From IMG/VR virus record IMGVR_UViG_3300036401_000302, positions 1 to 22,197 of that record: a stretch of DNA of 22,197 nt. One strand, 5' to 3'. Source of the DNA: a virus. Below are positions 2 through 10,855 of this stretch, piece after piece; within the stretch, counting starts at the first letter, position 1; each line of letters starts with the position of its first letter. The notes beneath the pieces are model-generated. The model was not told the origin of the DNA and ran no database searches. It saw only the letters and a list, made by a program, of their open reading frames with translations. Made by a program: the position numbers and the translations under genes.

Positions 2-2560
2 GACACGGCGCAGACCGTGGCCAGCAAGCTCGAGCACTTCACCGAGGAGACACTGTGGGAGTGCGGCACGCGCGAGCCTGGCAGCGACACGATGACGCAG
101 GTCACCGACGCGTGTCTCAACGACGGCGGCGGCTGGGCCAAGATCCTGTGGGCCAGCGACCTGTGGTCCGAACGCTACGGCATCCCCGATCCCACCAAGG
201 ACTCGTCGTCGACCACGTCTGACTATCAGAACTACGACAAGCTGACCGAAGAGGCGAAGAAGCGTGCCGGCCCGCCGTTCGTATGGCAGTACGTCGATCC
301 GCGGCGCGTGTACCCGCAGTGGTCGAACGGCTACCTGTGCGAGGTGCTCGAAGTGAGCCAGATGCCGAAGCGCTCAGCCTTCCGGCGCTACCGCCTCGCC
401 GAAGACTCGCAGGGCAACATCGTGCCCGAGGAGCTCGGCCAGAGCCAGAACGCGATCGAGTCGAGCCGCAACATCCTCAGCTCGGTCACTTTTTTGGAAC
501 ATTGGGACGATACGTGGTGCTTTCCAGCGGACACGCTGGTCGAGTCAGACAGCGATCTCGTCGGCGCCTACAAACGCTGGTACGAGGGGGAACTGCTGAC
601 CATCCGCACCGCCCGCGGCTACAAGCTCTCCGGTACCCCGAATCACCCGGTAATGACCGAGCATGGTTGGGTTCCGTTGGGTCAACTCAAGCAGGGCGAC
701 CGCGTAATCAGCCGCACGTTCAGTGAGCGCGCCGCGTCGGGGAATCCAGACCCAAAGCAGCGTCAGGCCCCAATTGGTCAGGTATTTGGTCTTCTTGACC
801 GCCTGGGCGTGCGCCAACGGCGAGTGGGGTCCCCGCAAGATTTCCACGGCGACGGGCAGGATGGCGGCGTCGATGTTGTACGGACCGAACGCCTTCTGTG
901 GGACTGGGTCAAGACCGCGCTGGCGCAGCCAGTCGATCATTTCTCGCTCGCCCTCACCGATCTTCACCATCGAGCGTTCGTTGGTCAGCGCTTGCTTCAG
1001 CACGTGGGCAGGATCTCGGGTGCGACCACGCAGAGCCAGGTGCGCCGCGGTGGCCTGCGCGAGCCGTTGCTCAGGGGTGAGTCGTTCGGCTCGCAGCCGC
1101 GCCGCCTCAGCGTTGCTGCGCATCGGAATGCCCGCTCTTTCGATGCGACTGCTGATGGTCCGAATGTTGAATCCCAACGCTCTGGCGATCTCGACGCTGG
1201 ACTGTCGCAGTTCGACGTAGCGGTAGATGACATCGTCCATGTCGATCGGAAGCAGTGGCGCGGACACGTGTACAACCTCGAAACCGAAGGCCACACCTAC
1301 AGTGCGGGCGGCATTATTGTACACAATTGCAGCTACGCCATCTGCGGCCAGAACCACCAGGGCGACAAGACGGGCTACATCGTCAAACAGTTCAAGCACC
1401 GCTACCCCTTCGGCGTGCCATACGACTACGCGCCCGGGCTGACCATGAACTGGTGGCGCAACCGTAAGGTCGGCTGGGGCATCGGTCGCACCAAGTTGTG
1501 GCTGGTGCAGTACCGCCAGTACCTGCGTGCCATGCACGCCCAGTACGTGGCGAGAGACTTGCTCAGCCCACTGGTGACGTACGGCGACACGCCTGCCGCG
1601 GCGGTGATCGGCGACGACGGCCTGCCCAAAGAGACGGACCCGACGGTGCATCCTGGCGAGATCCTGAACCTGCCGCCGGGCAGGCAGCTGCAGCGCATCC
1701 AGTATCCCGACGCCGCGACGCTGGAAAAGCACATGAGCCTGATCGACCAGGCCATTCGGGATCTCGAGTCGCCCAGAGTCACCACGCTGAGCGGCATGGA
1801 GGGCGCTGGCTTTGCCATCTCACAGGTGCTCTCCTATTCGCGTACCAGGGTCGGGCCCGTTCGGCATGGGCTCGAGAGCCTGCTCAAGGGCCAGACGGAA
1901 AAGCTCTGGACGCTGATCAGGGAGCGGGCGAAGGAAAAAGTCTGGGTGTTTTCAGGCGGCGTCGACGTCGGCAGCGGGACGCAGGTCGCCGAGTTCATCG
2001 GCTTTGGCCCGAGCGACCTCGAGCGCCCGATGCGCATCAAGTGGGAAGTCCAGGCGCAGCTACCGACCGACGAGATGATCATGGCGCGCTACGCGCACGA
2101 GCGCCTCGCCGCGGGCACGTACGGCAAGGACGAGGCCGTCAGCTACCTGGGCGACAACCCCGACGAGATCCGACGCAGCATTGCCAGGGATCGTATCCGC
2201 GCCAGCCCCGCGTATGAGAAGTGGTTGGACGCGGAGGTGTTCATGGAAGCCGGCCGCGGCGACATCCTGCAGAAGGCGCAAGAGGCGGAGCAACTCGCGC
2301 TCAGCGGTCAGGTCCAGGCGGGACTCCCTCCCGGTGGCCCGCCTGGTCAGACGCCGCAGCCTGGAGTCTTTGAAGGCGGGGGACCAGGCATGGGCGGCGT
2401 GCCCGATCTGGGGGCGCTTGCCGCCGCGCCCAACGGTGCGGGTGCCGCCCCTCCCCCGTACGCGCAGGTCGTCGGCGGGACGCAACAGCCAGGCGGCACG
2501 ATGCCGGCGGGCGGTATGCCGCTCGGGCCGCAGCGACCAGCGGCACCAGGAGGTCGATAG
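2..2560 (+). CDS. Portal protein, 5' partial, interrupted by an intein
   Basis: The frame is open from base 2, so the true start lies upstream; the GTG at 17 is only an internal codon. The host protein is read from 2-517 and 1328-2560, with an in-frame intein between. I call it a portal (the dodecameric ring at the capsid vertex through which DNA enters and leaves) from the general pattern. There is a mixed alpha/beta body, a helical segment after the intein (NWWRNRKVGWGIGRTKLWLV), and a late block reading KWEVQAQLPTDEMIMARYAH followed by a YLGDNPDEI stretch. The tail is Gly/Pro-rich and probably disordered (2300-2557). Position supports this: scaffold and capsid genes lie downstream on the same strand. 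The family call is from memory of portal sequences, not from a search; another large head protein is less likely. Confidence 0.75.
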   Translation, partial: DTAQTVASKLEHFTEETLWECGTREPGSDTMTQVTDACLNDGGGWAKILWASDLWSERYGIPDPTKDSSSTTSDYQNYDKLTEEAKKRAGPPFVWQYVDPRRVYPQWSNGYLCEVLEVSQMPKRSAFRRYRLAEDSQGNIVPEELGQSQNAIESSRNILSSVTFLEHWDDTWCFPADTLVESDSDLVGAYKRWYEGELLTIRTARGYKLSGTPNHPVMTEHGWVPLGQLKQGDRVISRTFSERAASGNPDPKQRQAPIGQVFGLLDRLGVRQRRVGSPQDFHGDGQDGGVDVVRTERLLWDWVKTALAQPVDHFSLALTDLHHRAFVGQRLLQHVGRISGATTQSQVRRGGLREPLLRGESFGSQPRRLSVAAHRNARSFDATADGPNVESQRSGDLDAGLSQFDVAVDDIVHVDRKQWRGHVYNLETEGHTYSAGGIIVHNCSYAICGQNHQGDKTGYIVKQFKHRYPFGVPYDYAPGLTMNWWRNRKVGWGIGRTKLWLVQYRQYLRAMHAQYVARDLLSPLVTYGDTPAAAVIGDDGLPKETDPTVHPGEILNLPPGRQLQRIQYPDAATLEKHMSLIDQAIRDLESPRVTTLSGMEGAGFAISQVLSYSRTRVGPVRHGLESLLKGQTEKLWTLIRERAKEKVWVFSGGVDVGSGTQVAEFIGFGPSDLERPMRIKWEVQAQLPTDEMIMARYAHERLAAGTYGKDEAVSYLGDNPDEIRRSIARDRIRASPAYEKWLDAEVFMEAGRGDILQKAQEAEQLALSGQVQAGLPPGGPPGQTPQPGVFEGGGPGMGGVPDLGALAAAPNGAGAAPPPYAQVVGGTQQPGGTMPAGGMPLGPQRPAAPGGR
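518..1327 (+). other. Intein in the portal gene (270 codons, Hint-type splicing domain)
   Basis: The insert starts at Cys (codon 518-520, CFPADTLVESD, block A) and ends at VHN (1319-1327), followed by Cys as the +1 extein residue. Block B is SGTPNHPVMTEHGWVPLGQL with the Thr-x-x-His core. Blocks F and G read GHVYNLETEGHTYSAGGIIV then HN. All residues expected for class 1 splicing are present: Cys1, block B Thr and His, penultimate His, terminal Asn and Cys+1. It should therefore excise and join the portal halves at Trp-Cys. The N half ends near 715 (GDRVISRTF) and the C half starts near 1230. The roughly 170 codons between show no LAGLIDADG or HNH motif on the + strand and look like the shadow of a minus-strand gene. 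Confidence 0.93.
545..1240 (-). CDS. Putative HTH + Vsr/EDxHD-like homing endonuclease, antisense inside the intein
   Basis: This is a 231-aa minus-strand reading frame from ATG (1240-1238) to TGA (547-545), wholly inside the intein. Residues 8-42 form a helix-turn-helix (SSVEIARALGFNIRTISSRI, then ERAGIPMRS). Residues 95-165 resemble the Vsr-like/DUF559 nuclease fold: Glu96/98/100, then Gln115, YNIDAAI (Asp124), VAVEI (Glu133), His139/His144, a Lys/Thr/Lys helix and a strand LLWVWIP. This is the layout of EDxHD homing enzymes such as I-Bth0305I (family knowledge). The last ~40 residues lie opposite intein blocks A and B. Open antisense frames are common here, so openness proves nothing; the call rests on motifs and protein-like composition. 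No Shine-Dalgarno is seen before the ATG. A TACAAT on the minus strand (1321-1316) could be a -10 box, weakly. A longer start in the same frame would run into portal shadow and is rejected. Confidence 0.78.
   Translation of the reverse strand: MDDVIYRYVELRQSSVEIARALGFNIRTISSRIERAGIPMRSNAEAARLRAERLTPEQRLAQATAAHLALRGRTRDPAHVLKQALTNERSMVKIGEGEREMIDWLRQRGLDPVPQKAFGPYNIDAAILPVAVEILRGPHSPLAHAQAVKKTKYLTNWGLTLLWVWIPRRGALTERAADYAVALLELTQRNPTMLGHYRVIRGTGELVAAGGADGQQFPLVPAFVGADEIAV
2548..2553 (+). promoter_or_regulatory. Strong Shine-Dalgarno AGGAGG
   Basis: A perfect AGGAGG lies inside the last codons of the portal gene, nine bases before the ATG at 2563. It fixes the start of the following 40-aa gene and is one of the clearest ribosome sites in the window. 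Confidence 0.8.
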
Positions 2561-3586: not shown

Positions 3587-6500
3587 GTGCCTGGCACGCT
3601 GCTCCTCGACGACCTGCACGACTCGATCAGCCAGCAGTTAGGCGACTACGCCTCGAGCCTGGGCAGCGCGGTGCAGGGTGCACAACAAGCTATTGCGCCC
3701 GTCCCGCTCATCCCGACGCCGCAGGCACCCGACCCGAACGCCATCCTGCAGGAGCTCCAGCAGCACGCCGCCGCGGTCGCGCAAGCCGCGCAGGAACAGG
3801 TGCAGCCCGCCGTCCAGGTGCTCGGCCAGGGTGTGGGCGGCGCGGTGACGCAGCTTGGCGGAGCGAAGGACGCGGTAACGCAGCAGTTGCTGCAACACGC
3901 CCAGGACGTCGCCAGCGGGGCGCAGGACGTCAACCAGCAGCTACAGAACCACGTTCAGACCGTGCTGGGGGCAGCGACGCCGACCACGCCGAGCGAGCCT
4001 GGCGGCGTCCAGTCACTGGCGAGACCGACTCCCTCGCCAGTGCTGGGCGCACCATCAGGTGACCAGAACGCGCCGCCTGTGCTCGGCGCGACGACCGGTG
4101 CGGTCAACCAGCCAGCGACTGCCGCGGCGACGACGGCTGCGCCGCCTGATCGGACGATGTCGTTTCAGGACTACGCTCGAGCCGCAGCGCAGCGGGCCGG
4201 TATCGACCCGAACGTGTTCACCGCGCAGATTCAGCAAGAGTCGGGCTTCAACCCGAGTGCCAGGAGTCCCGCGGGCGCGATCGGCATCGCGCAGTTCATG
4301 CCCGAGACGGCCAAGGGCGTGAACTTGGACCCGACGGACCCGTACGCCAGCCTGGACGCGGCAGCGGCGGAGGACGCCAAACGACTGCAGCAGTACGGCG
4401 GCGACTGGGGCAAGACGCTGGCGAGCTACAACGCCGGTGCTGGTGCCGTGGCGCAGTACGGCGGCATCCCGCCGTATGCCGAGACGCAGGGCTACGTCAA
4501 GACGATCATGGGCAATGCCCAGAAGGCCGCGGACGCTGCGGGCACGACGATCAGCAACGCGGTGCAGGCGGGTGCGCAGGCCGTAGGCGGTGCGGCATCG
4601 GCAGTCGGCACGGCAGCGCAACAGAAGCTCCAGGACATCAGCCAGTTCGGCGACAAGCAGCTGTCTGCTGACGAGGCGTACGCCGCGTGCGGTCCCGCGG
4701 CGGCGGTCAGGTTCGCGGAGCGCTTCGGGCGCAATCCGACGCTGCGTGAGGCGACCGACCTGGCGAAGCAGGTGGGCTGGACGTCGGGCGGTGGCATGGC
4801 CGGCATCACCAGCGAGCAGCAGCTGCTCAAGAACATGGGCGTCGATACGCACATTGTCGCGCCCGACTGGCTGGCGATCGCCAAGGAAGCGCAGACCGGC
4901 AACCCCGTTACCATCTCGACGCCTGGTCACTACTACTTCGCCGACGGCTACAACCCGGACACGGGCGCGTTTCACGTAGGACAATCGGGACTCGATCTGA
5001 AGAACGGCGCCGAGTGGATGACGCCGCAGCAGATGGAAAACCTGATGGGCAAGGCCCAGGGTGCGCTGTTCGCCGACAACCCGAACGTGCCAGCCAAGGG
5101 CGCGTCGCCGACGGCGCTGGGCGGCACGACGGGCGCGCAGAACGCGCCGATCACGATGGGCGCCAACCAACCCGCTCGAGCGCCGCTGGTGGTGGAAGAC
5201 CAGACGCCGACGCCGATCCGCGCAGCGCAGGACGTGCTCGGTGCCGCGGGCGAAGCCGCCAGTCAACTGGGTACGACTGCGCAGGACCTGCTCGCGCAGG
5301 CGCAGGAGCTCAACCGTGTGCAGCCGGGCACGGAGGCGATCAAGGCGGTCACGCCGATTCTGGGTGGTGCAGCGCAGGCAGGTGGTTCAGCGGTCAGCCA
5401 GGTCGCACAGGACGTGCAGCAGGCCGCGCAGGGCGTGCTGGGAGCGGCACAGGACGTCAATCGTCTGACGCCAGGCACCACGGCAGTCAACGCGGCAGCG
5501 CCCGTTCTAGGGGCCGCTGCGAGCGATCTCGGGGCAGGTGCGCAGCGCGCGGTCCAGGACCTGGGCGATTCGGGCGCGGCCAACGCGCTATTGCGGCAGG
5601 GTAGGACGCCGGCGGAGCAGGCAGAGTTTGAGCGGCAGCAGGGCCAGGTGCTCGGCGGCATCGCCGCGCAGGCGAACGCGCCAGCCCCGACGTTGAACGC
5701 TGGCGACGTGGCGCGCAACGTGTGGGACCTGGTGGTCAACTCGAGCCCCGGTCTGCCGGGCGTGTCGCTGCAGGACTACCAGCACGCTTCGACGGTCAAG
5801 AACGACTGGATCGAACAGAACAACCCAGCCAAGGACGTGCTGCTCCTGGGCGGGCTGACGACGATGATCGCGCAGCAGGTCACCGACCCGTACGCGCTGA
5901 CGATGTTCGGCTTCACGGGTGGTGCTGGTCGTGTAGCTGGCGAGGCCGCGGGTGAGGCAGCGACCGCGGCGACGGCGAATCGTCTGGGCCAGCAGGGCGC
6001 GGCGTTTGTTGGTCGGGTGGCGAACAAGCTGGTTGATGGCTCGATCGTGGGCGGGGTGCAGAACGCGCTGTACGCCGCGGAGCAGCCCAACGCCTCGCCC
6101 GAGTCGGTGTTTACGGCACTGTGGCAGGGCGCTGCATTGGGCTCGGCGGCAGAGGGCGGTACGGCAGCGTTGACGCCGGTGGCGCGGCGGATTGGTCAGG
6201 CCATCATCGACCAGGCGCCGCGACTGCGGCCAGCAGTAGCAGAATTCGCGCGCTCGGAGACGGGTGCTCTCGGGCGACCAGAGGATGTCAGGGGACTGGC
6301 GGCGGAGCAGGGCGGTCGCGCACCCGAAGCTGCGCCTACCGAACGACCAGCAGACAACCCCTACGACTTGCCGCGGGTCGCGCCTGAGCCGACCGCAGCG
6401 CCATTGTCAAGCGAAGAGGTGTTGTCGCACCTCGAGCAGCTCGATCAGGTGCATACCCAGAATGACGCGCGCATCGCTGACCTGCAGAATCAGGTGACGG

Positions 6501-9500
6501 CTGGCACCGCTGCACCCGAGGCGCGTGCCCAGCTGACACGACTGCAGGCGGACCAGGCGCAGATCGACGCGGCGCACACATCGATCTGGGAGCACGCTGG
6601 TTCAGGTGGTGATGTCTACGCGCGGCCTGCGACCGAAGGGGTACCGTTGTCGGGTGGAGTGGACGCCGCAACAGCGCAAGCAGCTCGAGGCGTTGCACCG
6701 GCGAATGCTGAAGCGGCAAGCGTCCGCGGCGAAGCGGTCGCAGGCGTTCCAGGTACGCCAGGCGCAGCAGAACCCGCCGCACGCGCCGAGTCCGCCCAGC
6801 CCGAACTAGGCGGATTCCGCGCTCCGGCGCAGGGCACCGTCAGTGCTGAGGACGCGCCGACCGTCGGCTCGATTGCCAGCCGATTCGGATGGAAAGGCGA
6901 CCCCGGCATCAGTCTGGAGGGGCAGGGAACGTCCGTACCAGCGGTGATCTATCGCGATGCTGACGGCATCGCGCGCGGTGGGCTCAACCTGGTTCACGAT
7001 GCGGATGGAAACCTGACGCACGTCACGGTAGCGGTTGATCCAGCTTTCCAGCGGCAGGGCATTGCCACGGCAATGTATGACGCAGCCAAAAAGGCTGGTT
7101 ATGACGTGGAGGCTGTGTCTGGCGCGAGTGGTTACACCGAGGCAGGAGCGGGATTAGCTAACGCACGTCGTGGGGTATCACCGACCGGAGCACGTCCGGA
7201 GACTTCCACGCCGCGGCGGCTCGAAGACGTGCAGAGCAACCCGCACCTCCTGCGCGAGCCAGGACCGGGCGAGACGCCGATGACGATGGACGAGCGGCTC
7301 GCGCACCAGGACACGCTCGAGCAGCGCTATCAGGCCAACACCGAACGGCTGGCGGCGATCGACGAGCAGCTCCGCAACCCGACGGCCAGGCCCGAGCGAC
7401 CGCCGTGGGCGGCAGGCTTCACCAACGACCAGGTCGCGACGATGGCGGCGAAGGTCGGACGCAGCCCCTATGAACCTCTCTGGTGGGAGAAGGCTGGTCT
7501 GGAGGCCGGCTCTGGCGAAGTGCGCGAGATGGTCAACGAGGGGGGCGTTGAGCGTGGGCGCTTTGACGCGACGCGTACGTCCACGCCTGCAGAACTGCGC
7601 GCGGAACAGCGGGCGCTGCAGCAGGATCAGTTGCATCTCGAAGCCGCGGGTGAGCAGCAGGCAACCGCGCCGGACAATGCCCGCTTCGTGCGGCCGCCAG
7701 AGCGTGCCGCGGGAGCGCTGCCGTTCGGTGAGGGCGGCGCGTCCGACCCTGGCGCGCAGTTAGCGCAAGAAGTTGTCACACGGCGTGGCACGGTCACGTC
7801 CGATCCGAACCAGGTGACGGCGACGCGCGGCGACGTTACGGGCCGCGGCATCGTCAATCCCGCGGAGGTCGTGACGGAGGCGCCGTCGGAGGCGACCAGG
7901 GCGCTGATGCCGAACCTGAACGCGATCGGTAAGGACATGCCTGAGGTCGTGGCGCAGATTCAGAAGTCGGTCGACGACAACCCGGCGTTGTGGGAGCACT
8001 ACAAACAGGGCACGATCACCTTCGACTCGCTCAAGAACGACCTGGCTGCGCGCGTGGGCATGACCAAAGAAGACTGGCTCAAGACGAAGGTCGGGCAGGC
8101 ATTCAACGACCAGGAGATGGTCGCGCTGCAGGCGGCGATGATCGAAGAGCAGGCGCGTCAGACCGATATGGCGAAGAGCATCCTGAGCAAGGGCGGCGTG
8201 GACAACCTCACGCCCGAAGAGCTCGCCTACTCGATCACCCAACTGACGCAGGCGCAGTCGCTGGCCGCGGTTGCCAAGGGTGCGGGCAGTACCGTGGCGC
8301 GTTCGTTGAACGCGCGCAAGATCAGCTTCACCCGTCAGTTAGCCAGCGACATCACCGCGCAGAACGAGCGCCGTGCGGCGCAGCGTGTGAAAGCGCAGGC
8401 CGCTCGGGTCGCGACCAGGGCCGGCGACCTGCTCGACAACGCGAAGACGCTGGATCAGCAGAAAGCGGCAGCGACCGCGGCAGCATCCCGTCCCGCAAGA
8501 CCGGGAGCGCCGCGGACGCCGCAGAACATCATCGACCAGATCGCCAACGCGTACGACGAGCTGGATCGCTACAACGCGATGAGCCTGCACGAGAAGGCGG
8601 ACGTGTTCGACAAGCTCAAAGCGCAGCGCGAAGCGGCAGCAGCAGCCCGCGCGAGCGCTGTCCGCGGTGCGCCCGAAGAGCTCCTGTCCGCGCTGAAGCA
8701 GGAGCTCAAGGCCGAACAGGACAACTTCGCCAAGCGCAAGAACACCTGGGAAACGATGGCGTTCATAGACTCCAAGGCGGCGGAGAACGCTGCTCGCGAG
8801 CGGGCTGCATTCCGCGGCGGTCTGTACATCGAGCAGCAGCGTCGCGTGGCGCAGAACGCGCTGAAGGGCGCCGATACGGAGATCAACCGCGCGTTCGACT
8901 CGGAGCTCAAGCGCCGCGGCCAGCAAAGCGCCAAGGCGCAGAAGCTGCTCGAAAGTCTGGGCGGCACGGAAGTGACGAAAGACGTACTCAAGAACTACCT
9001 GGCCGCGCTGTCCGATCCCGACCCGATGGTTGCCGCCAAGTTCCTGCAGAGCACGGCGAGCATGTCGAACTGGAAGCGGGCGACGGTCGTGCGCCTGGCC
9101 GGGCTCGTCTCGAGCCCGATCACGCAGATGGTCAACATCGGTGGCAACGTCGCGGGTGCAATGATCGAGGTGCCGACCCGCGGGCTGGTAGTCGGCATCG
9201 ACGCGCTGCGCGCCGCGGCGACCGGGGGCGAACGGCAAGCCTACGCCGGCGAGATCCTGCCGATGCTGAAGGCGTACGGCCCCGGTTTCTTGGGGCAGTG
9301 GGACAACGCGTACCGCGTGCTGAAGACGGGCTTTACGCCCGAGCAGCTTGCCGATCCGACCAGGATCCGCGGCGCGTTCTCGCGCAGCGAACTGCTGAAC
9401 GCTGGCGTTGAGGCGCCGCTGCGTCTGCTCGGCGCGGCCGACCAGTTGTTCCGCGGCGGAGCGATGGCGGCGCATTCGATGCGCGTCGCGACCAGGCAGG

Positions 9501-10855
9501 CGATCCGTGAAGGTTTCAGCGGTCCGCAGGTCGCAGGTCGTGCGGCGTCGATCGTGAAGAATCTCGAGGACTATCCCGAGCTTGCCAAAGAAGCCGCAGA
9601 CGCGACGGCGCGGCAGGTCTATCAGGAGCGGCGGGCTGGTCTTGGCGGAGGCAACAAGCCGTTGCCGGACGTCGCCGAGTTCGGTGTCAAGCAGGTGCTG
9701 CCCTTCTACCAGACGCCGATGAACATCACCGCGCAGGGTGCGGCGCTGAGCCCGTTCGGCTTCACCGGCGCGCTGCAGAGCTCGCTGAAGGCGCGCGGCA
9801 TGGCGGTCGGCAGCGCCGCAGAACGTACTGTGCAGGGTCGGGAGACGCTGCTCGCCGAAGAGCGCGCCGCACGTGCCATCATCGGTAGCGCCATCCTGGG
9901 CGGCGGCATCGCGCTCGGCAGTGCGGGCATGTTGACCGGCTCGTACCCGATCGACCCGAAGGAGGCCAGCACGCTGCCGCAAGGTTGGCGACCGTGGTCG
10001 TTGCGGATCACCAGTCCGATCGACAACAACACCTACTACCTGCCGATGCAGAACTTCAATGCGGCGGGCTTCCCGCTGGCGATGGCGTCGATCCTGACCG
10101 ACCCGCAACACCGCGGCAAGACACTCGCCGATCCAGACGAGCAACTCAACGCTGTTACGGCGATTGGTCGCTACGTGCTGGATAACACGTTTCTGCAGGG
10201 TTTGTCCGACGTGGTCAATACGCTGCACGATCCGAAGAGCGCGGCGCAGAAATTCGGCGAGGGCCTGGCCGCGAGCTACGGTCCGTACTCGAGCCTGGGG
10301 CGGGAGATGCAGCGCATTCAGGGCGTCGCGACCAGGAATCCGCACAACGGCTTCGTCGGTCTGTGGGAGGCGCTCGAGTCGAACTATCCCGGCGCGTCAG
10401 CGAACGTGCCTGAGGCGACCACGCCGCTCGGCGAGCCCAGGACGCAGGGCGCGACCGGCATCGCTCGGGTGGTGCCGTACCGCTACGACATCGAGCGCGA
10501 CACGCCGTTGCTGCAGCAACTGCGCGAGTCGGGGGTGGGCATTCCGACGGAGCACAAGTCGCTCAACTATGGCGGGCAGCACATCGACCTGACCGAAGAC
10601 GAGCAGGACGTGCTCAAGCGGCAGCGCGGCGAAGCGCTGAAACAGTACCTGGACCCATACGTCAACGACCCCAAGTTCCAGAACCTGAGCCAGGCGGAGC
10701 GCAACCGCTACCTGACCGTGCTGGTGTCGCACGCGGTGCAGTACGCCGACCACCAGTTCCTCAACGACATGCCGGGCGCCGACCTGAGCTCGCGGCTCAA
10801 GCCGAAGACCGTGCCTGATCCGTACTATCTCGGCGACGCGGGAGCAGCGGCCTGA
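3587..10855 (+). CDS. Giant virion/ejection polyvalent protein: lytic transglycosylase + C39-like peptidase + GNAT-like domain (2422 aa)
   Basis: Starts at GTG four bases after the previous stop. Residues 1-185 are Ala/Gln-rich. Residues 190-305 are an SLT-type lytic transglycosylase, with catalytic Glu218 in QQESGFNPSA, GAIGIAQFMPETA, and ASYNAGAGAV. Residues ~355-500 are a papain-fold C39-like peptidase, with Cys368 in ACGPAAAV and His448 in STPGHYYFADGY. Residues ~1090-1185 resemble a GNAT acetyltransferase (THVTVAVDPAFQRQGIATAM). Residues ~1500-1800 are long charged helices. Residues 1835-2130 contain LVSSPITQMVNIGGNVAG, VLPFYQTPMNI and a hydrophobic Gly/Ala segment, as in large phage polyvalent proteins. 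The likely role is release into the cell envelope during DNA entry, opening peptidoglycan as T7 gp16 does, with other domains acting in the cytoplasm (inference). At 2422 aa it is much longer than T7 gp16 (about 1300). No frameshift is seen. Confidence 0.92.
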   Translation: MPGTLLLDDLHDSISQQLGDYASSLGSAVQGAQQAIAPVPLIPTPQAPDPNAILQELQQHAAAVAQAAQEQVQPAVQVLGQGVGGAVTQLGGAKDAVTQQLLQHAQDVASGAQDVNQQLQNHVQTVLGAATPTTPSEPGGVQSLARPTPSPVLGAPSGDQNAPPVLGATTGAVNQPATAAATTAAPPDRTMSFQDYARAAAQRAGIDPNVFTAQIQQESGFNPSARSPAGAIGIAQFMPETAKGVNLDPTDPYASLDAAAAEDAKRLQQYGGDWGKTLASYNAGAGAVAQYGGIPPYAETQGYVKTIMGNAQKAADAAGTTISNAVQAGAQAVGGAASAVGTAAQQKLQDISQFGDKQLSADEAYAACGPAAAVRFAERFGRNPTLREATDLAKQVGWTSGGGMAGITSEQQLLKNMGVDTHIVAPDWLAIAKEAQTGNPVTISTPGHYYFADGYNPDTGAFHVGQSGLDLKNGAEWMTPQQMENLMGKAQGALFADNPNVPAKGASPTALGGTTGAQNAPITMGANQPARAPLVVEDQTPTPIRAAQDVLGAAGEAASQLGTTAQDLLAQAQELNRVQPGTEAIKAVTPILGGAAQAGGSAVSQVAQDVQQAAQGVLGAAQDVNRLTPGTTAVNAAAPVLGAAASDLGAGAQRAVQDLGDSGAANALLRQGRTPAEQAEFERQQGQVLGGIAAQANAPAPTLNAGDVARNVWDLVVNSSPGLPGVSLQDYQHASTVKNDWIEQNNPAKDVLLLGGLTTMIAQQVTDPYALTMFGFTGGAGRVAGEAAGEAATAATANRLGQQGAAFVGRVANKLVDGSIVGGVQNALYAAEQPNASPESVFTALWQGAALGSAAEGGTAALTPVARRIGQAIIDQAPRLRPAVAEFARSETGALGRPEDVRGLAAEQGGRAPEAAPTERPADNPYDLPRVAPEPTAAPLSSEEVLSHLEQLDQVHTQNDARIADLQNQVTAGTAAPEARAQLTRLQADQAQIDAAHTSIWEHAGSGGDVYARPATEGVPLSGGVDAATAQAARGVAPANAEAASVRGEAVAGVPGTPGAAEPAARAESAQPELGGFRAPAQGTVSAEDAPTVGSIASRFGWKGDPGISLEGQGTSVPAVIYRDADGIARGGLNLVHDADGNLTHVTVAVDPAFQRQGIATAMYDAAKKAGYDVEAVSGASGYTEAGAGLANARRGVSPTGARPETSTPRRLEDVQSNPHLLREPGPGETPMTMDERLAHQDTLEQRYQANTERLAAIDEQLRNPTARPERPPWAAGFTNDQVATMAAKVGRSPYEPLWWEKAGLEAGSGEVREMVNEGGVERGRFDATRTSTPAELRAEQRALQQDQLHLEAAGEQQATAPDNARFVRPPERAAGALPFGEGGASDPGAQLAQEVVTRRGTVTSDPNQVTATRGDVTGRGIVNPAEVVTEAPSEATRALMPNLNAIGKDMPEVVAQIQKSVDDNPALWEHYKQGTITFDSLKNDLAARVGMTKEDWLKTKVGQAFNDQEMVALQAAMIEEQARQTDMAKSILSKGGVDNLTPEELAYSITQLTQAQSLAAVAKGAGSTVARSLNARKISFTRQLASDITAQNERRAAQRVKAQAARVATRAGDLLDNAKTLDQQKAAATAAASRPARPGAPRTPQNIIDQIANAYDELDRYNAMSLHEKADVFDKLKAQREAAAAARASAVRGAPEELLSALKQELKAEQDNFAKRKNTWETMAFIDSKAAENAARERAAFRGGLYIEQQRRVAQNALKGADTEINRAFDSELKRRGQQSAKAQKLLESLGGTEVTKDVLKNYLAALSDPDPMVAAKFLQSTASMSNWKRATVVRLAGLVSSPITQMVNIGGNVAGAMIEVPTRGLVVGIDALRAAATGGERQAYAGEILPMLKAYGPGFLGQWDNAYRVLKTGFTPEQLADPTRIRGAFSRSELLNAGVEAPLRLLGAADQLFRGGAMAAHSMRVATRQAIREGFSGPQVAGRAASIVKNLEDYPELAKEAADATARQVYQERRAGLGGGNKPLPDVAEFGVKQVLPFYQTPMNITAQGAALSPFGFTGALQSSLKARGMAVGSAAERTVQGRETLLAEERAARAIIGSAILGGGIALGSAGMLTGSYPIDPKEASTLPQGWRPWSLRITSPIDNNTYYLPMQNFNAAGFPLAMASILTDPQHRGKTLADPDEQLNAVTAIGRYVLDNTFLQGLSDVVNTLHDPKSAAQKFGEGLAASYGPYSSLGREMQRIQGVATRNPHNGFVGLWEALESNYPGASANVPEATTPLGEPRTQGATGIARVVPYRYDIERDTPLLQQLRESGVGIPTEHKSLNYGGQHIDLTEDEQDVLKRQRGEALKQYLDPYVNDPKFQNLSQAERNRYLTVLVSHAVQYADHQFLNDMPGADLSSRLKPKTVPDPYYLGDAGAAA
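5303..5524 (+). repeat. Two diverged 25-aa repeats in the giant protein, 147 nt apart
   Basis: QELNRVQPGTEAIKAVTPIL (from 5303) and QDVNRLTPGTTAVNAAAPVL (from 5450) are two copies of one 25-residue unit, each followed by GGAAQ or GAAAS. Related PVLGA/ITMGA phrases with QNAP occur earlier (near 4030-4100 and 5110-5170), so this linker region seems built from duplicated amphipathic modules. Confidence 0.7.

Follow-up and report, generated by a model that had tools for sequence, protein, structure and literature searches.

The viral record IMGVR_UViG_3300036401_000302 (22,197 nucleotides (nt), the whole stretch of DNA that was analysed and hereafter the window) carries close to its first position a putative head gene interrupted by an intein, and exactly opposite the intein frame lies a second gene, on the minus strand, that codes for a predicted nuclease. 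The plus-strand open reading frame (ORF) 2-2560 is one continuous frame spanning the N-extein, the intein, and the C-extein. It matched Pfam Intein_splicing (E 8.5e-10) and exceeded the cut-offs of TIGR01445 intein_Nterm (25.7 bits against 24.5) and TIGR01443 intein_Cterm (18.2 against 15.6). Hint motifs are present at both ends; Cys1 lies at 518, and the terminal His-Asn (1322-1327) is followed by Cys +1 at 1328. Because the precursor is one continuous ORF, a split intein or fractured gene was ruled out. The Pfam search found no LAGLIDADG or HNH match in the plus-strand intein middle. In the AlphaFold model of the plus-strand intein, residues 1-70 have a predicted local distance difference test (pLDDT) score of 85-98 and residues 125-228 a score below 50, which means that the modelled protein folds at its ends only. 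A conventional intein with an in-frame endonuclease was ruled out on these two grounds. A first-pass annotation of the window had proposed a complete plus-strand intein with no recognisable endonuclease domain in its frame, which agrees with these results. Its assignment of the host gene as a portal gene found no such backing, since Pfam and PHROG searches of the exteins gave no family match, and we keep the name as a guess from context. The PHROG 'head protein' profile phrog_15127 matches residues 170-357 of the window protein, which belong to the intein and not to an extein; this family model therefore appears to contain an intein.

Table 1. Features of the intein-bearing head gene and of the antisense nuclease gene in the window.
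Feature	Position	Strand	Basis or remark
N-extein, putative portal-like head gene	2..517	+	Joined exteins and intein-free L120 agree at 579/582 residues
Intein, 270 aa, Cys1 ... His-Asn	518..1327	+	Intein_splicing, TIGR01445, TIGR01443; absent from 79/80 related genes
N-terminal splicing region, ~75 aa, blocks A and B (CFPADTLV ... TPNHPVMT)	518..742	+	pLDDT; ordinary plus-strand coding bias
C-terminal splicing region, blocks F and G, GHVYNLETEGHTYSAGGIIVHN	1250..1327	+	TIGR01443; plus-strand coding bias 18/15/61 over pairs
C-extein, first residue Cys +1	1328..2560	+	Val or Ala at +1 in most empty relatives
Helix-turn-helix and Vsr/EDxHD-like nuclease gene, 240 aa	545..1267	-	GTG start; alternative ATG 1240; stop 545-547
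Helix-turn-helix SSVEIARALGFNIRTISSRI	1142..1201	-	AlphaFold helices 24-31 and 35-44; profile match 2lvs
Glu107, nuclease core, conserved in 97% of 74 relatives	947..949	-	Alignment
Asp133, motif YNID, invariant in 74 relatives	869..871	-	Alignment
Glu142, motif VAVEI, invariant in 74 relatives	842..844	-	Alignment
Probable GTG start, antisense of block-F His codon CAC	1265..1267	-	Alignment
Shine-Dalgarno GAGG, antisense of block-F Asn-Leu codons AAC CTC	1276..1279	-	Family Leu codon bias
Weak -10-like element TACAATAAT (TACAAT or AATAAT, 5/6 in either register)	1313..1321	-	Antisense of block-G Ile-Ile-Val codons

The minus-strand ORF counted from the ATG at 1240 to the stop codon gives the 231-aa protein of the first-pass annotation. 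The antisense nuclease gene itself stands, whereas its extent needs revision: the alignment with relatives and the GAGG located 8 nt upstream make the GTG at 1267-1265 the more likely start. The C-terminal tail overlaps intein blocks A-B, and the ORF is thus not restricted to the gap between the blocks. The antisense ORF and the intein frame are aligned codon for codon, so that position 3 of each nuclease codon pairs with position 1 of an intein codon. The length of the ORF was dropped as evidence because long antisense ORFs (668, 437, and 403 aa) also occur elsewhere in this GC-rich (guanine-cytosine-rich) window. What confirms the minus-strand gene, at the level of sequence comparison and structure prediction, is the combination of tblastn relatives, codon-position bias, codon avoidance, and contrasting AlphaFold models.

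The substitutions in the intein middle follow the coding needs of the minus strand. Over nine pairs, the differences at host codon positions 1/2/3 numbered 664/262/431 (p 2e-12, a nominal value because the pairs share some sequences), and the excess at position 1 corresponds to the sites that are silent for the nuclease. The same pairs gave 914/678/1737 in the exteins and 18/15/61 in the C-terminal splicing region, and the N-terminal splicing region showed the bias of ordinary plus-strand coding. The nuclease-silent direction held across the pairs, with one case nearly equal; the window itself gave 68/31/43 against L001 (p 0.022) and 67/26/42 against L037 (p 0.02). TTA, CTA, and TCA in the nuclease gene would each read as a stop in the intein frame; these codons do not occur in 30 embedded loci (0 vs 170.7 expected from the neighbouring genes), and the avoidance at single loci reached values as low as 10^-7.6. 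The free-standing relative in Acinetobacter phage IME285 has 12 such codons vs 10.6 expected. As judged from these codon-level patterns, both frames are under selection. For the middle, the first-pass annotation had named a synonymous bias on the plus strand as a point that would speak against its proposal; the comparison had the opposite outcome, with the bias on the minus strand.

The minus-strand protein was modelled by AlphaFold from an alignment of 74 relatives with a mean pLDDT of 92.2. I-Bth0305I is an EDxHD homing endonuclease, and both chains of its catalytic domain were the top two matches of the model in a Foldseek search against the PDB (probability 0.99, E 0.013-0.014); matches below rank 4 were taken as noise. 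The family profile matched the endonuclease-like protein 3hrl (4.6e-5), I-Bth0305I (3r3p, 0.022), and the helix-turn-helix (HTH) structure 2lvs (6.6e-8). Relatives match Pfam MTES_1575 REase (best 5.8e-9) and, weakly, DUF559 and Vsr; in the HTH region they match HTH_38/HTH_7, and many of them carry two HTHs. Besides the conserved acidic residues listed in Table 1, Asn131 is invariant among the relatives. The model and the profile indicate that a DNA-binding HTH domain is joined to a Vsr-like catalytic domain in the window nuclease, and the assignment to the Vsr/EDxHD type made at first pass is thus supported by sequence profiles and predicted structure. The window nuclease used alone had no significant nuclease match in Pfam, NCBIfam, or the PDB. 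A phmmer match to 7al5 was set aside because it covers a helical stretch only, and matches to PHROG HNH endonucleases were set aside because they cover only the HTH part. In the portal-site relatives L001, L036, and L037, the nuclease is longer by ~62 residues (a second HTH-like repeat), giving an intein of 332 aa.

With E-value limits of 1 and 0.01, a tblastn search with the window nuclease returned 132 and 128 phage records, respectively, with E down to 2e-25. The phages infect Salmonella, Gordonia, Pseudomonas, Klebsiella, Escherichia, Vibrio, and other hosts, and one Chloroflexota plasmid also carries a relative. IMG/VR contributed 441 loci, of which the best 80 were kept. The relative lies antisense within an intein, as indicated by IntN and/or IntC hidden Markov model matches on the opposite strand, at 117 of the 118 loci examined; because the loci were collected by similarity to the window nuclease, this is no census of all Vsr-like nucleases. 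The antisense phase is identical in every embedded case among the isolates and the first metagenome loci inspected. Insertion is usually directly before the first Cys of an H.N-C-R-C motif in MuF-like minor head proteins. The window clade resides in a different gene, and its nuclease groups with a MuF-inserted one at moderate support (81/93). A scan of genome contigs found nothing with the single nuclease sequence as the query and four relatives with the alignment. The apparent frame breaks in L005 and L011 were taken as likely sequencing or assembly errors.

Several existing records contain the element under other descriptions. In Escherichia phage KMB36 (L033), an intein with an antisense nuclease occupies another site of the same minor head gene, which carries the annotation 'minor head protein with inserted intein'. 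In Salmonella phage vB_StyS-sam, a segment of the antisense nuclease (L224:1397-1798) already has an entry of its own, as hypothetical protein ORF43. The MuF gene is named 'NAD+--asparagine ADP-ribosyltransferase', probably by misannotation, in NBSal007 and ZCSE7, which bear the intein, and in TUMS_E4, which appears to be free of it.

The signals expected for initiation of the nuclease gene are located within the splicing blocks. The nuclease start codon lies opposite the His residue of block F (GHVYNL) in 77 of 101 non-redundant inteins, but every His codon gives ATG or GTG on the other strand, and the position alone is weak evidence. Codon choice is more informative. The block-F His is encoded by CAT, which gives ATG, in 57 of 76 cases, compared with 33% in the exteins. 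The Leu two codons before Glu/Gln is encoded by CTC or CTT in 69/76 (28.9 expected, P 1.3e-23), a choice that places GAGG or AAGG 8 nt upstream of the start. Reversed block G (G-I-I-x-x-N) reads as an exact TATAAT in 23/81 cases and as an extended -10 element, TGnTATAAT, in 20/81, compared with 1.6 and 0.35 in synonymous shuffles, respectively; in cases like L021, this element precedes the start codon by ~45 nt. A consensus promoter scan of L017 gave nothing on the right strand. Such a scan requires a -35 box and misses extended -10 elements, and the codon-shuffle test was therefore used. The synonymous sites of these signals are kept across proteins that are 30-40% identical, which is hard to explain without selection, although shared ancestry inflates the numbers. 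Thus, beyond the single case described at first pass, the sequence comparisons reveal that the layout is that of a widespread and conserved family with its putative expression signals embedded in the splicing blocks.

Genes with and without the insert at the same site, the comparison proposed at first pass, were found. Among 80 related genes in IMG/VR, 79 lack the insert, and their extein regions abut at zero gap. The intein-free L120 is identical to the joined window exteins at 99.5% of residues. Because the empty host genes are nearly identical to the occupied one, the element appears to be mobile. Among Jersey-like Salmonella phages, the gene with the intein is covered to 80% or more in ~58 records, and many other phages of this group, such as Shelanagig, are short of exactly 816 nt. 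The residue at +1 serves splicing as a nucleophile. It is Cys in the window, Val in the nearest empty twins, and Val (61), Ala (11), Cys (6), or Leu (1) in the 79 empty genes. This distribution fits the arrival of Cys +1 with the insert, by break repair and co-conversion of the flank. The empty alleles and the altered +1 residue both point to intein homing driven by the nuclease.

Taken together, we consider it highly probable that the intein in the window is mobile and that its homing endonuclease comes from a gene of its own, antisense and in exact register with the intein frame. It is likely, though with less assurance, that the splicing blocks also encode a complete antisense cassette (extended -10, Shine-Dalgarno, start, and nuclease) and that this unit is kept across several insertion sites. 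The plus-strand mRNA of the head gene would be translated into a precursor protein, from which the intein would splice itself out. We infer that the minus strand is also transcribed and translated in cells: block G, read on the minus strand, would supply the -10 element of the promoter, and block F, read in the same way, the Shine-Dalgarno sequence and start codon used in translation. The nuclease would then cleave the allele of a co-infecting phage that has no intein, and the intein with its flanks, including the Cys +1 needed for splicing, would be copied in during repair, so that cutting would be what moves the element.

Some observations weigh against this reading. The consensus promoter scan found no sigma-70 promoter at the window nuclease, and its -10 element is imperfect (5/6), which makes the promoter the weakest step for the window copy. 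No TATAAT element was found in 10 ordinary inteins, a control that is small and unmatched in composition, and the loci in the counts are related, so that the P-values are overstated. The E-values of the Foldseek matches (0.013) are modest. His149 is usual in the relatives (66%), whereas the window has Ser at 149 and His at 148, and activity of the window nuclease is therefore not assured. Lacking both the perfect -10 and the commonest His, the window copy is less surely active than its family.

The alternative that survives best, which we still regard as unlikely, holds that the nuclease is real but acts as a separate parasite or exclusion enzyme, for example by attacking co-infecting phages elsewhere, with the intein as a safe harbour. 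The IME285 copy (L028:413-1345) adjoins an intact, intein-free MuF gene, which shows that the nuclease can persist without an intein, and nucleases with HTH and Vsr-like domains are not necessarily homing enzymes. However, the intein embedding shared by all but one of the loci examined, the presence or absence of the insert at one exact site in near-identical host genes, and the fold match to a homing endonuclease fit homing. The IME285 nuclease nests among the embedded members (97/94, with midpoint rooting), which suggests that it once left an intein; its C-terminal tail is still similar to the stretch that overlaps intein block B in other relatives. Marginally less plausible is the view that the nuclease is a decaying relic in many copies, with a frame held open only through the intein and homing that has mostly ceased. 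The replaced His and the imperfect -10 of the window would suit such decay, whereas the retention of Glu107 in the window, the presence of Asp133 and Glu142 in all relatives, the dominance of nuclease-silent substitutions in all pairs except the nearly equal one, and the codon choice that maintains the initiation signals are at odds with it. We regard as very improbable that the minus ORF is a shadow of a real plus-strand linker or domain, kept open by GC-rich composition: long antisense ORFs are frequent elsewhere in the window and the codon-aligned phase is the one most often open by chance, but this explanation is contradicted by the substitutions concentrated at sites silent for the minus strand, the avoidance of TTA, CTA, and TCA, the contrast between the two AlphaFold models, the existence of relatives with 34-50% GC, in which open frames are unexpected, and the free-standing copy, whose opposite frame is full of stops.

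If antisense expression of the intein-borne endonuclease is confirmed, the family would be a large natural example of protein genes that overlap over their full length on opposite strands, in which selection on each strand is measurable at single codon positions. The arrangement separates splicing from the supply of nuclease. As transcription of the host head genes uses the opposite strand, this separation may be important to phages. The layout would also explain the minor-head-gene inteins that seemingly have no endonuclease, since searches confined to the intein frame miss the mobility gene. Culturable carriers, namely Salmonella Jersey-like, Gordonia, and Pseudomonas phages, allow direct homing tests. 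Farther along the window, the plus strand encodes a 2422-aa virion-type protein (3587-10855) in which a transglycosylase SLT domain (4e-22) was detected, together with a weak match to GNAT acetyltransferases around residue 1121.

No account of an intein with an endonuclease gene in antisense was found in the open-access literature. Inteins have been noted in the minor head genes of Salmonella Jersey-like phages and E. coli phage KMB36 (PMC8425127, PMC11162368, in passages on these genes), and these inteins (L017-type and KMB36) are the same ones that carry the antisense nuclease here. The passages concerned describe the intein, and separate genes for homing endonucleases at other places, but no nuclease gene antisense within it. 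A passage of PMC11855218 that deals with overlapping reading frames in actinobacteriophages cites Gosselin, Arsenault, and Gogarten (bioRxiv 2025, 10.1101/2025.01.02.630785). The title of that preprint names a 'non-canonical architecture' of inteins in actinobacteriophages, the same phage group, and to judge from the title, its content may overlap with the present finding.

Large inteins of the conventional kind, with a LAGLIDADG or HNH domain in frame, share with the window element blocks A, B, F, and G, mobility at a conserved site, and a nuclease located inside the intein DNA. In contrast, the nuclease here is encoded on the other strand as a separate protein of the Vsr/EDxHD type with its own signals. 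The fractured genes attributed to Dassa 2009 are reportedly split, with the nuclease between the halves and without overlap. Such genes and their split inteins likewise tie a separate EDxHD/Vsr-like homing endonuclease gene to an intein, whereas here the intein is unbroken and the overlap of the two genes is complete. EDxHD/Vsr-like endonucleases occur in phage introns and with split inteins, according to a passage of PMC12350094 that cites Dassa 2009. The ShiLan domain is an out-of-frame HNH endonuclease inserted in a phage methylase (PMC11855218). It resembles the window element as a homing endonuclease hidden in another frame of an insert that is kept open in the host frame, but it lies on the same strand, is of the HNH type, and has no detected splicing domain (PMC11855218). 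Group I introns in the nuclear ribosomal DNA of myxomycetes carry antisense His-Cys homing endonuclease genes that are expressed in vivo (PMC9548176). There, as here, the endonuclease gene is antisense inside a self-splicing mobile element; unlike the protein intein described here, the myxomycete element is an RNA intron with the nuclease in a peripheral loop, free of dual protein coding and of overlap with the splicing motifs (PMC9548176).

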